Of a stretch of DNA of 64,000 nt, positions 8,741 through 38,100 are shown one piece after another. The position numbers were made by a program, and so were the translations under genes. The stretch is from Haloparvum sedimenti (GTDB taxonomy: Archaea; Halobacteriota; Halobacteria; Halobacteriales; Haloferacaceae): NCBI RefSeq assembly GCF_001462205.1, contig NZ_LKIR01000121.1, positions 75,862 through 139,861 on the forward strand, written 5' to 3'. The notes below the pieces were generated by a model, which was not told where the DNA came from, did not search any database, and worked only from the letters and a program-made list of their open reading frames with translations. The first letter of the stretch is position 1; the number at the start of each line of letters is the position of its first letter.

Positions 8741-8765
8741 GCGGCGGCCGTCAAAACCGGGCAAC

Positions 8766-9740
8766 ATGATATTTGAGGACCTCCCCACGACACCTCGATC
8801 GGAGGAACTCCTCGACAAGGCCTTCTCGCGGGCGGCCCGGGCCGGGCACGCCAAGAGTGGCCACGAGGCGCAGCTGTCGATGCTCACCACCGCCGCGAAC
8901 ATCCTCTCGGACAACCTCCAGAACGTGTCCACGTCGTGGCCGGACTTCGAGTACGACGTCGATCCGTTCTACTACGAGCTGGCCGACGCCATCGTCGACG
9001 TGGACCGGCTCCGCCAGGCGCTCTCCGAGGTGACCTGGGCGGGGCGACAGATCGCGGAGATCCGCAGCGAGTACCAGTCGAAGATCAACGACTCGAACCT
9101 CGAGGTCGCCCGCAAACACCGCAAGCAGGCGTTCGCGCGCATGGCGGACATCATGGACGAGATCGAGGACGACCTGCGCGCGGTCGGGGACGCCCGCGAC
9201 GACCTGAAAGGACTCCCCGAGATCAACGTCGACGAGCCGGCCATCGTCGTCGCCGGCTACCCCAACGTGGGGAAGTCCTCGTTCGTCAACGCCGTCACCC
9301 GCGCCTCCAACGAGATCGCGGAGTACCCCTTCACCACCAAGGGCGTCCAGATCGGGCACTTCGAGCGCGACCGCATCCGCTACCAGATCATCGACACGCC
9401 GGGCGTGCTGGACCGGCCGGTCGAGGACCGCAACGACATCGAGCGACAGGCGGTCTCCGCGCTGGAACACCTCGCGGACTGCGTGCTGTTCGTGCTCGAC
9501 GCCTCCGGTGACTGCGGCTACCCCATCGAGTCGCAGCTCGAGCTCCTCGCGGAGGTCGAGGAGCTGTTCGGGGACGCCGTGCCCGTCATCACGGTCTGTA
9601 ACAAGAGCGACCGCTCGACGGACGTCGAGGCGGACCACTACATGAGCGTCGCCGAGGGCGAGAACGTCGAGGCCGTCCTCGACGCCGCGGTCGAGGCGGT
9701 CGGCTTCGAGCCGGACCTCCCCTCGCGCGAGGACGCCTGA
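8766..9740 (+). CDS. Nog1-family ribosome-associated GTPase
   Basis: 324 residues. An N-terminal helical bundle (about 1-155) is followed by an Obg/Nog1-type G domain. That domain has P-loop GYPNVGKSS at 164-172, DTPG in the G3 position, and NKSD as the guanine-specificity motif. Nog1 acts in assembly of the large ribosomal subunit in archaea and eukaryotes. The archaeal form lacks the long eukaryotic C-terminal extension, and this length fits. The ATG at 8766 begins MIFEDLPTTP, the conserved N-terminus. It is followed by the long repeat-filled spacer. Confidence 0.92.
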   Translation: MIFEDLPTTPRSEELLDKAFSRAARAGHAKSGHEAQLSMLTTAANILSDNLQNVSTSWPDFEYDVDPFYYELADAIVDVDRLRQALSEVTWAGRQIAEIRSEYQSKINDSNLEVARKHRKQAFARMADIMDEIEDDLRAVGDARDDLKGLPEINVDEPAIVVAGYPNVGKSSFVNAVTRASNEIAEYPFTTKGVQIGHFERDRIRYQIIDTPGVLDRPVEDRNDIERQAVSALEHLADCVLFVLDASGDCGYPIESQLELLAEVEELFGDAVPVITVCNKSDRSTDVEADHYMSVAEGENVEAVLDAAVEAVGFEPDLPSREDA

Positions 9741-9840
9741 GCCCCTCCCCGGGTAGCGAGCGGGAGCGTTCATAGCCCCAGAAAAAGACCGAGCGTTCGG
9801 CACCGACTGCCCGTTCAGTGATCGGCGACAGCCCTGATCG

Positions 9841-10265
9841 CGGTCGGCGCGCGCGAGCAACGCGCGCGAGGGAGGCGGCGGCGCGGCCGCCTGCGGTGCG
9901 TTGCGGTCTCGCGGCCGCGCCGCCGCCGAGGCTGGGGAGGTGCGAGGCTGCTGTGCGGTTGCGGTGCGGGGCGGTGCGGGGCGGTGCGGGGCGGAGCGGG
10001 GCGGGGCGGTGCGGGGCGGAGCGGGGCGGTGCGGGGCGGAGCGGGGCGGTGCGGGGCGGAGCGGGGCGGAGCGGGGCGGTGCGGGGCGGTGCGGGGCGGA
10101 GCGGTGGGTGGGGCTGAAAGGGGCAGCCGGCTCGATCCGGCCCCGACGACGTAAGCACCGCAGTCCCGCGGCGACCCTGTGTCGCCGCGACTGTTCGAGG
10201 AGCGCAGCGAGGCGCGGCCGGTCGAGCCGGCTGGGGCTTTCTGGGTGGTGCTGTTCCACGCAGCA
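9841..10265 (+). repeat. interspersed structured repeat, copy 1
   Basis: This fills most of the 656-base gene-free stretch between nog1 and the MaoC gene. It is homologous, block by block, to the reverse complement of 24321-24728. The shared order is: an 8-bp CG hairpin (9848-9868); a 17-bp perfect hairpin (9874-9890 with 9911-9927) whose loop holds GCGTTGCGGTC; GAGGCTGGGGAGGTG; a GC decamer region; CTGAAAGGGGCAGCCGGCTCG; AAGCACCGCAG; GAGGAGCGCAGCGAGG; and GTCGAGCCGGCTGGGGCTTT. A long-range helix pairs 10124-10142 with 10216-10233. No credible protein is encoded; reading frames through it are Pro/Arg/Gly-rich artefacts. Function unknown. Bases 9741-9840 and 10266-10396 on either side show nothing recognisable. 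Confidence 0.8.
9961..10104 (+). repeat. GC decamer tandem array inside repeat copy 1
   Basis: About fourteen head-to-tail units of GCGGGGCGGT or GCGGGGCGGA. The tenth base alternates irregularly between T and A, and there is one GCGGGG variant. Copy 2 of the element has only about three such units at the same place, so the array is an expansion within copy 1. Confidence 0.9.
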
Positions 10266-10396
10266 GGATCTGCCGCAGTTTCAAAAACGCCCTACTGAGT
10301 GCCGGCGAGAGCGCTCGAACCGCAAACCCGCCACACGAGCTGACCGTCCCCGTTACCGTTCCTTTTGAGCCTGCCGAGAACGCCGCCGGATCAGTC

Positions 10397-17890: not shown

Positions 17891-19405
17891 TCAGGCGGCC
17901 TCGGCACGGAGGTCGCCCGAGGTCCGGACGCGCGTCCCGACCGGTTTCTTGACGAAGTCGCCGGTCGCGGTGCCGAACAGCTCCGAGACCCCGCGCTGTG
18001 CCGCCACGTCGAGCAGGCGCTGGTTCACGGTCCCGTCGAGTACCACCGTGTGGGGCGGCTCCGCGGCGTCGGCGACCGCGTCGAAGGCGTCCTCGGCGTC
18101 GGCCTCCGCCAGCACGCCGCCGTCGGCGTCGAGCAGTCGCACGCGGCCGCTCCCCGAGTCGACCACCTCCTGCACGTGCTCCTCGAAGGAGCGTGCGCCA
18201 TCGTCCTCGGCCGATTCGGTTGCGGTCGGCGCAGGCGTCTCCGTGCTCTCGGACTCGCCCGACGTGGACCGCTCTTTCTCCCGCTCGGTCGCGTCGGGTT
18301 CGACTGCGTCGCTTTCGGTCGCACCGCCTTCTGTCGCACCGCCTTCTGTCGCACCGCCTTCGGTCGCACCGCTTTCTGTCGCCTCGGAGTCGCTCGCCGC
18401 CGATCCCTCGGCCCTCCGCGCGTCAGCATCCCGCTCCTCGGCGCGGCGGTCGTCATCGGTCCGTTCGTCGGCATCGTGGGTCGCGTGCTGATCGTCGGCC
18501 GACGCTCCGTCCCCGCGCTCCTCGGTGGCCCCCGCGTCCGACCCGTCGGCCGCTGAACCGCCGTCGTCCGCCTCGACGGCGGCCTCGCGCAGGTTCGGCT
18601 CGTCGGCGACGGTCGCGTACGGCACCTTCGCGCGGAGCGCCTCCAGCACCTCGCCGCGGTCGAGGTCCTCGACGGAGCGCCCGGCGGGCGCGAACGCGGC
18701 GTAGTCCACGTCGCCGACCTGTCCGAGCTCGCGGAGGATCAGCTCGCCGCCGCGGTCGCCGTCGAGGAACGCCGTGACGGTGCGGTCCGCCGTCAGGTCC
18801 GCGACCGCGTCCGGGACGTTCGTCCCCTCGACCGCGACCGCGTTCTTGATGCCGGCGTCGAGGAGGGTCGAGACGTCCGCGCGCCCCTCGACCACGATGA
18901 CCGCATCGGAGTCGCCGACGCGCGGGCCCGCGGGTAGCCCCTCGTACTCGGTGACGCCCTCGACTCGGGCGGCCTCGCGGACCTCGTCCAGCACGTCGTC
19001 GCTGGACAGCGAGGTCTCCTCGAACCCCGACGCGAGCAGTTCCTTCGCGCGGTCGACGACCTCGCGACGCTTGGCCGCGCGGACGTCCTCGATGCTGGTC
19101 ACCTCGACGGAGGCCTCGCAGGGCCCGATCCGCGTGATCGTCTCGAGAGCGGCGCCGAGGATGGCCGTCTCCACCTTCTCGAGGCTCGAGGCGACGGTGA
19201 GCTCTCCGAACGACTGTCCGTTCTCCGATTCGATCGCGACGTCGATCCGGCCGACTTTGTCCGACTGCTGGAGGTCGCGCAGGTCCAACTCGTCGCCGAG
19301 CAGGCCTTCGGTCTGCCCGAAGACCGCGCCGACCACGTCGGACCGCTCGACCACCCCGTCGGCCGCGATGGTCGCGTGAATGAGATATTTTGCTGTGTCT
19401 TCCAT
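17891..19405 (-). CDS. dnaG: archaeal DnaG primase-like protein
   Basis: 504 residues. An N-terminal archaeal DnaG domain (MEDTAKYLIHATIAADGVVE onward) is followed by a TOPRIM domain. The TOPRIM domain has the catalytic Glu in DAVIVVEGRADVSTLLDAG (near residue 175) and the metal-binding DGDRGG (near 216-221). Archaeal DnaG has primase activity and associates with the RNA exosome. Between TOPRIM and the C-terminal domain is a long acidic low-complexity linker (about residues 285-400) that includes a five-residue repeat. The ATG at 19405 is preceded by a small CCCC-GGAA-GGGG hairpin in the leader. Confidence 0.93.
   Translation of the reverse strand: MEDTAKYLIHATIAADGVVERSDVVGAVFGQTEGLLGDELDLRDLQQSDKVGRIDVAIESENGQSFGELTVASSLEKVETAILGAALETITRIGPCEASVEVTSIEDVRAAKRREVVDRAKELLASGFEETSLSSDDVLDEVREAARVEGVTEYEGLPAGPRVGDSDAVIVVEGRADVSTLLDAGIKNAVAVEGTNVPDAVADLTADRTVTAFLDGDRGGELILRELGQVGDVDYAAFAPAGRSVEDLDRGEVLEALRAKVPYATVADEPNLREAAVEADDGGSAADGSDAGATEERGDGASADDQHATHDADERTDDDRRAEERDADARRAEGSAASDSEATESGATEGGATEGGATEGGATESDAVEPDATEREKERSTSGESESTETPAPTATESAEDDGARSFEEHVQEVVDSGSGRVRLLDADGGVLAEADAEDAFDAVADAAEPPHTVVLDGTVNQRLLDVAAQRGVSELFGTATGDFVKKPVGTRVRTSGDLRAEAA
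18309..18380 (-). repeat. 15-bp in-frame repeat in the dnaG linker
   Basis: Four to five 15-base units encode tandem Gly-Gly-Ala-Thr-Glu copies (GGATE, with SGATE and ESDAVE variants) in the acidic linker of DnaG. Units are nearly identical at the DNA level, indicating recent slippage expansion. Confidence 0.8.
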
Positions 19406-24187: not shown

Positions 24188-24320
24188 GCCTCCCGGTTCG
24201 GCGACCGGGCGCTTGAAAGCATCCTTTCCAGGGCGAGCGGAGATCGCGGTGCTGTGAGGAGTCGCAGGAGTCTACGCAGGTGTTTCTCTCGTAGACCCTG
24301 TTGATCTGGACAGCACCACC

Positions 24321-24487
24321 CAGAAAGCCCCAGCCGACTCTCTGTACTACTGATCGGGTTCTATTGCAAACTCTGCTGCTCTGGACAGCAACGTCCAGAA
24401 AGCCCCAGCCGACTCTCTGTACTACTGATCGGGTTCTATTGCAAACTCTGCTGCTCTGGACAGCAACGTCCAGAAAGCCCCAGCCGG
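24321..24487 (-). repeat. 75-bp tandem duplication in the tail of repeat copy 2
   Basis: Two perfect or near-perfect 75-base units start at 24321 and 24396. A third begins at 24471 (CAGAAAGCCCCAGCC) and passes into the main body of the element. Each unit contains the motif read on the minus strand as GGCTGGGGCTTTCTGG. Confidence 0.9.
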
Positions 24488-24728
24488 CTCGACCCGCCGG
24501 GCCTCGCTGCGCTCCTCGCTCTCCGCACAGCCCGCTGCGGTGCTTGCGTCGTCCGGGCGGGACCGAGCCGGCTGCCCCTTTCAGTCCCACCCCGAACAGC
24601 ACCGCAACCGCTCCGCACCGCAGCCTCACACCTCCCCAGCCTCGCCGCAGCCGCGGTCGCGTGACCGCAACGCAACGCGACCGCGGCTGCGGGCTCCCTC
24701 GCGCGCGTTTCTCGCGCGCGCCGACCGC
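24321..24728 (-). repeat. interspersed structured repeat, copy 2
   Basis: Fills most of the 597-base gap between the Vms1-like gene and hisS and runs in their transcription direction. It matches copy 1 (9841-10265) in block order. It contains an 8-bp CG hairpin (24700-24707 with 24713-24720), a 17-bp perfect hairpin (24645-24661 with 24676-24692) and a long-range helix (24481-24498 with 24556-24574). The stem sequences differ from those of copy 1 while pairing is kept. The tail is duplicated as a 75-bp tandem. A degenerate third tail unit seems to extend to about 24250. Bases 24729-24784 show nothing else. Confidence 0.8.
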
Positions 24729-28126: not shown

Positions 28127-28159
28127 TCGGGCGGGCGAGGGCCGCGGTCTCGGCCGGCG

Positions 28160-28261
28160 CAGTTACAGAAGGCGCGCAGTTACAGAAGGCCCGCCGTTAC
28201 AGAAGGCGCGCAGTTACAGAAGGCCCGCCGTTACAGAAGGCGCGCAGTTACAGAAGGCCCG
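28160..28261 (+). repeat. 17-bp tandem repeat, six units
   Basis: Six contiguous 17-base units alternate between CAGTTACAGAAGGCGCG, CAGTTACAGAAGGCCCG and CCGTTACAGAAGGCGCG. They are followed to about 28309 by decayed units that keep the ACAGAA/CGGAAA core. It lies between the DUF5518-like gene and the converging gamma-glutamyltransferase gene. No spacers, so it is not a CRISPR array. Confidence 0.9.
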
Positions 28262-28314
28262 CATCCACGGAAATCCTGCAGCGACAGAAAAATCCCTGCC
28301 AGCGACGCGGCCGG

Positions 28315-37973: not shown

Positions 37974-38030
37974 AGAGCGGCTGCGCTGGGTTCGGAACTC
38001 CCGCCCTGCCCGGGGACAAAAAGGACTTGG

Positions 38031-38100
38031 CCGCGACCGGGACAGAAACAGCCCAGCCACGACCGGGACAGAAACAGCCAGCCACGACCGGGACAGAAAC
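38031..38100 (+). repeat. 25-bp tandem repeat, about three units
   Basis: Units have the form GACCGGGACAGAAACAGCC plus AGCCAC. Copies begin near 38034, 38060 and 38085 (one has an extra base and the last is truncated). The array fills part of the 200-base spacer between the lipoate ligase-like gene and rps6e. Confidence 0.8.

Follow-up and report, generated by a model that had tools for sequence, protein, structure and literature searches.

Haloquadratum carries transposase-free mobile repeats, known as PATE, SMR and MITE (PMC3119063). The REP/BIME elements of bacteria, with RAYT, are palindromic repeats whose numerous copies lie between genes and form inverted pairs. SINE-like and group II intron-derived RNA elements are dispersed structured bodies with tandem 3′ tail units. 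We found that both hairpin repeats in the window, that is, the whole 64,000-nucleotide stretch of DNA analyzed here, are members of one dispersed, folded, non-coding element family. Like the Haloquadratum repeats, this element is haloarchaeal, dispersed, transposase-free and palindromic (PMC3119063). However, the ends and the relation to known transposons are what define those classes, whereas the present element is defined by three covarying stems (with the reservation for P1 given below) and fixed boxes; moreover, it is common to several families and occurs where no Y1 transposase was found. It resembles REP/BIME elements in its many intergenic palindromic copies and their inverted pairing, but it is approximately 10 times longer and multi-stemmed, has an internal-loop motif and tandem tails, and no Y1 transposase of the RAYT type was found in four of its carriers. 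An RNA-like structured body, many dispersed copies and tandem 3′ tail units are shared with SINE-like and group II intron-derived elements, from which it differs in that 12 element-rich genomes yielded no reverse transcriptase. Finally, conserved boxes joined by covarying stems recall the large structured non-coding RNA families of Rfam; unlike these, the element matches no Rfam 15 model, is present at approximately 100 copies per genome and shows fast turnover of its sites.

The source genome (G000) is a haloarchaeal draft assembly of 143 contigs. Reading 41 loci in this genome established the order of the element, from 5′ to 3′, as P1, P2, A box, pentamers, B box, P3, C box and tail. The P1 hairpin terminates in CGCGCGAGGGA and occurs as longer variants in some other copies and genera. 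The A box (GAGGCTGGGGAGGnnnGAGG in the family) lies directly 3′ of the P2 hairpin and is separated from the B box (GGGACTGAAAGGGG) by GCGGT-type pentamers, whose array length differs from copy to copy. The B box precedes the P3 stem, and the C box (GGGGCTTTC) lies 3′ of it. The tail consists of one to four units of approximately 75 nt, every one of which duplicates the 3′ strand of P3 together with the C box. Folding z values of −6.2 and −4.5 were obtained. The two copies in the window are detailed in Table 1; copy 1 is flanked by a NOG1-like GTPase gene and a MaoC-like gene in convergent arrangement, and copy 2 by hisS and a release-factor-like gene.

Table 1. Coordinates of the parts of both element copies within the window
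Copy	Feature	Position	Strand	Remark
1	P1 hairpin, CGCGCGCG-AGCAA-CGCGCGCG	9848-9868	+	then GAGGGA at 9868-9873
1	P2 hairpin, 17-bp stem, 20-nt loop	9874-9927	+	
1	A box, conserved, GAGGCTGGGGAGGTGCGAGG	9928-9947	+	
1	GCGGT-type pentamer array, expanded here	9949-10110	+	length variable between copies
1	B box, conserved, GGGGCTGAAAGGGG	10110-10123	+	5′ strand of outer P3 helix and GGG of 3x3 loop
1	P3 stem and interior (GACGTAAGCACCGCAG ... GAGGAGCGCAGCGAGG)	10124-10233	+	base arms 10124-10137 / 10220-10233
1	C box, conserved, GGGCTTTCTGG	10234-10244	+	3′ strand of outer P3 helix
1	Tail, one decayed unit	10245-10290	+	3′ boundary not sharp
2	P1 hairpin	24700-24720	-	
2	P2 hairpin, perfect 18-bp stem	24645-24692	-	
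2	A box, GAGGCTGGGGAGGTGTGAGG	24624-24643	-	
2	B box, P3 stem and C box	24470-24588	-	
2	Tandem tail units, period 75	24298-24490	-	each with P3 3′ strand and C box

An initial annotation, made from the sequence alone, had claimed a perfect 17-bp P2 hairpin in each copy, a shared loop core, two matched changes in the inner arms and a long-range helix with a further matched swap. The pairing in copy 1 (9874-9890/9911-9927) held, and that in copy 2 held and was extended to 18 bp (24645-24662/24675-24692), with the correction that copy 2 is in minus-strand orientation. The two matched inner-arm changes did not hold, as the P2 arms of copy 2 are almost wholly unlike those of copy 1 and carry one bulged C near the base. 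The loop core GCGTTGCGGTC is present in both copies but is not a family-wide feature: it is exact in only 3 of approximately 40 copies in the source genome, and the P2 loops of other genera are unrelated to it (for example, GGAGCGAAGCGGA, TATA and GTTCAT). The long-range helix, here termed P3, was located exactly as claimed (10124-10142/10216-10233 and 24481-24498/24556-24574), reading CTCGA-T-CCGGCC/GGCCGG-TCGAG in copy 1 and CTCGG-T-CCCGCC/GGCGGG-TCGAG in copy 2; the matched G-C to C-G swap was confirmed, and an A-T to G-T change was seen in addition.

Aligning many copies, which was the check that the initial annotation proposed for its reading of selection on structure, gave covariation in both P2 and P3 and supported that reading. 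Among 38 distinct copies from the source genome, 96.9% of P2 cells were paired versus a mean of 88.1% in 500 shuffles, and only 31-62% were paired when the partner arm was slid; 10 of the 17 pairs were altered on both sides, and none of the 500 shuffles reached the observed values. Across many genera, a P2 arm was Watson-Crick paired with its own partner at 94.3% versus 57.7% when arms were swapped between copies (108 distinct arm pairs), and the corresponding values for P3 were 95.8% and 68.8% (148 distinct arm pairs). RNAalifold, applied to 60 P3 modules, independently recovered the outer helix GAAAG/CTTTC. In these 60 copies, the outer pair at columns 7-128 was CG in 44 and GC in 16 and never broken, columns 8-127 were AU in 43 and GC in 16, and the interior pair at columns 48-85 was CG in 49 and GC in 11, again with none broken; the inner helix pair at columns 18-117 was CG in 36, UA in 15, UG in 7 and CA in 1. 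By comparison with these changing pairs, the 3x3 internal loop GGG/GGG was invariant (60/60). Counts across related element copies are not independent events. The fold of P2 and P3 is preserved as the sequence varies, which satisfies the covariation criterion for a structured RNA. Covariation is not claimed for P1, where GC-rich pentamers made the automatic stem search unreliable. The possibility that the hairpins are inverted duplications, named in advance as a refutation of selection on structure, does not account for the isolated pair swaps of P3, for its invariant loop amid covarying helices or for its surplus of G-T relative to A-C; in P2, with its wholesale arm replacement and non-significant G-T excess, it cannot be ruled out completely.

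The mismatches were used to distinguish RNA from DNA. A one-sided mutation of a G-C pair gives G-T or A-C; of these, RNA of the strand that is read can accommodate only G-T. P3 contained 63 G-T versus 15 A-C mismatches (p=4e-8, without correction for shared ancestry), and one of its pairs was T-G 23 times versus C-A twice. As G-U intermediates are tolerated and A-C are not, at least the P3 half likely acts as RNA, read in the direction from P1 towards P3. Strand-biased mutation could also yield the G-T excess; since elements lie in both orientations, this too would need transcription in the P1-to-P3 direction. In P2, 30 G-T versus 19 A-C mismatches showed no significant asymmetry (p=0.15). The level at which P2 acts therefore remains undecided, as its near-perfect stems with few G-T fit maintenance at the DNA level equally well.

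Of 152 Halorubrum copies, 69 have a TATA-like motif, TTTATAAA, between positions −26 and −8 relative to P1, versus 0-9 in control windows. Its distance from the 5′ end of the element is nearly constant, and similar motifs recur in the tail units of these copies. Either a promoter or an insertion-site preference could explain the motif, and the data do not resolve which. Because it sits so near P1, a start 25 nt downstream would lie within P1. It was not found in genera outside Halorubrum, and an own promoter as a universal feature of the element was rejected on this ground. Transcription of the element is probable, but this is inferred only from the G-T excess and the TATA-like motif, with no expression data.

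The P3 module is missing from elements in several genomes (G161, G386, G190, G176, G119 and others), where the element ends in a box like GTCGGCAGTAGCTAGC. Several of these P3-less elements form tail-to-tail pairs 22-37 nt apart, and tandem tail units were seen in one locus (L360). Copies of the Halorussus type (L360, L363, L364, L367, L373, L409, L410) likewise have no P3 module; they end in GTAGCTAGC, and many are tail-to-tail inverted pairs with a separation of 22-37 nt. A P3-type module was detected in 141 cases, and in 138 of them it followed the P1/P2 module on its downstream side with matching orientation. In L126:1539-1654, as compared with L064:247-362, the P3 interior is flipped between intact arms, which represents strand exchange within the element at the DNA level.

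A DNA search with copy 1 returned 99 element matches in the source genome, and the A box likewise gave 99. Counted in 394 genomes of the class, the A-box pattern occurred in 74, and 15 of the 86 haloarchaeal genera were positive, whereas the reversed control pattern gave one hit in one of the 394 genomes. Every sampled genome of one large genus (g14) carried 7-176 copies; this genus is almost certainly Halorubrum, since a scan of named genomes returned mostly Halorubrum species. The same scan also returned Halorussus, Halosimplex, Halobellus and Halobium, together with two bacterial records that match the A box presumably by chance. A viral origin was rejected, as 2.9 million viral contigs yielded only 8 matches to the box, all by chance and outside the element, and a plasmid-borne element was rejected, with only partial matches in four plasmid records. 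Searched against Rfam 15, the window gave only a tRNA and six loci gave only far sub-threshold hits, and no description of the element was found in the open-licence literature searched. The element family is new and widespread among haloarchaea, and the databases and open-licence papers that were searched appear to contain no description of it.

Placement of the element is intergenic, with only 3 of 196 copies called inside genes. The flanking genes were convergent at 70 sites, co-directional at 86 and divergent at 29, with enrichment of the convergent arrangement; 124 of 191 upstream genes point towards the element, and orientation between co-directional genes was 50:36. Presence/absence turnover at the same site was shown upstream of pyrG, where some Halorubrum species have the element and most do not, and where P2 is wholly different among the species that have it. 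At an orthologous site, flank identity was 95-96% versus 83% for the element. A precise empty site was not obtained in G013, G191 or G405, as the sites there were rearranged as well, and no target-site duplication was seen by eye in solo copies, for which no clean empty site was available for comparison. In G405, an inversion breakpoint between Halorubrum species lies at an element (L313:8029-8396 versus L319 and L321) of which mostly tail units remain.

Along one complete chromosome with 176 copies, element spacing was near random; a role as a replication-strand marker was rejected, with orientation not significantly clustered (p=0.056) and runs not reduced. In one chromosome (G167:C1), 13 of 18 close pairs (<2.5 kb) were tail to tail (p=3e-5) and enclosed single ordinary genes (SRP54, Thi4, PMSR, ThuA and others). 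A composite transposon with cargo was rejected because the enclosed genes are ordinary. The inverted ends exist only in such pairs; single copies do not meet the definition of MITE-type terminal inverted repeats, as P1 at their 5′ end bears no relation to the 3′ tail. A CRISPR array was also rejected, as the 75-nt tail units are tandem duplicates, including the part between repeats, without unique spacers.

Candidate mobilizers were sought in 12 element-rich genomes. The reverse transcriptase domain RVT_1 was found in none of the 12, with control genomes positive, and retrotransposition of the SINE or group II intron type was rejected. Y1_Tnp, the sole transposase family examined, was found in 8 of the 12, including the source genome, and not found in G013, G044, G176 and G006, which hold 105, 110, 94 and 11 element copies, respectively. 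On the evidence so far, the present copy numbers are therefore explained neither by reverse transcription nor by an IS200/IS605 transposase.

Neither the function of the element nor its mobilizer is established; it is best read as a mobile repeat that is structured, non-autonomous and probably transcribed. Our main interpretation, which we favor by a modest margin (probability roughly 0.58), is that of a non-autonomous, non-coding mobile element selected to keep a three-stem fold. What selection keeps would be the fold of P1, P2 and P3, linked by invariant single-stranded boxes. Stems drift or are swapped as cassettes while boxes stay fixed because stem sequence is free provided that the arms pair. 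Tentatively, new copies may arise at the DNA level via a host- or transposon-supplied enzyme that recognizes the folded single strand or the boxes, or else through recombination, and a transcript, from its own promoter or by read-through, may bind a protein via the GGG/GGG loop and the P3 interior.

A possible alternative is that the fold matters only as single-stranded DNA, in a PATE-like or rolling-circle transposon mobilized in trans by an IS200/IS605 Y1 or IS91-like transposase. The hairpin-rich ends, the absence of an internal protein-coding gene, the lack of a target duplication obvious by eye, the near-perfect P2 without strand asymmetry, the tail-to-tail inverted pairs, the flipped P3 interior in L126 and the abundance of PATEs in a haloarchaeon (PMC3119063) all speak for it. 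Against it stand the four carriers (11-110 copies) without a detected Y1, within the limit of the single family searched, and the strong G-T over A-C asymmetry in P3, which is unexpected for a DNA-only structure. Hairpin-templated DNA repair or inverted duplication could instead keep the stems perfect without selection for structure. This is consistent with P2 arms that are exchanged wholesale between copies yet remain perfect, with P2 mismatches that lack strand bias and with the L126 inversion as strand exchange between arms. We consider it unlikely, as the order of three stems and the fixed boxes persist across families, P3 has invariant unpaired loops amid covarying helices with isolated, never broken pair swaps, and templating would erase the GGG/GGG mismatch loop that every aligned copy retains. 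Least plausible is a cis-acting 3′-UTR or terminator element at gene ends: the preference for convergent sites and for upstream genes pointing at the element suits it, but the nearly balanced co-directional orientation, the 29 copies between divergent genes, the site family upstream of pyrG and the lack of site conservation between related species make it very improbable.

Returning to the preferred reading of a mobile element, the fold is clearly selected, probably as RNA, and the element has spread with no reverse transcriptase and, it appears, with no help from the usual single-strand transposase. A bolder possibility is that an RNA-fold-selected mobile element at approximately 100 copies per genome, across several haloarchaeal families and without reverse transcriptase, represents a new RNA-guided or RNA-dependent DNA mobilization system, or a multicopy structural non-coding RNA with a chromosome-wide role. 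Halorubrum and its relatives are widely used, yet this element of approximately 100 copies seems to be unannotated in the sources searched. A rearrangement breakpoint is marked by its copies, which probably also interfere with assembly and gene prediction in carrier genomes. Mechanical open reading frames at 8751-10259, 9589-10284 and 9901-10368 of the window cross the GC-rich element and risk being mis-annotated as genes. The window also contains a tandem array of 17-base units at 28157-28289, with higher-order periods of 34 and 51 bases, which is unrelated to the element, and short tandem arrays at 18310-18382 and 38030-38100 with units of 15 and 25-26 bases.
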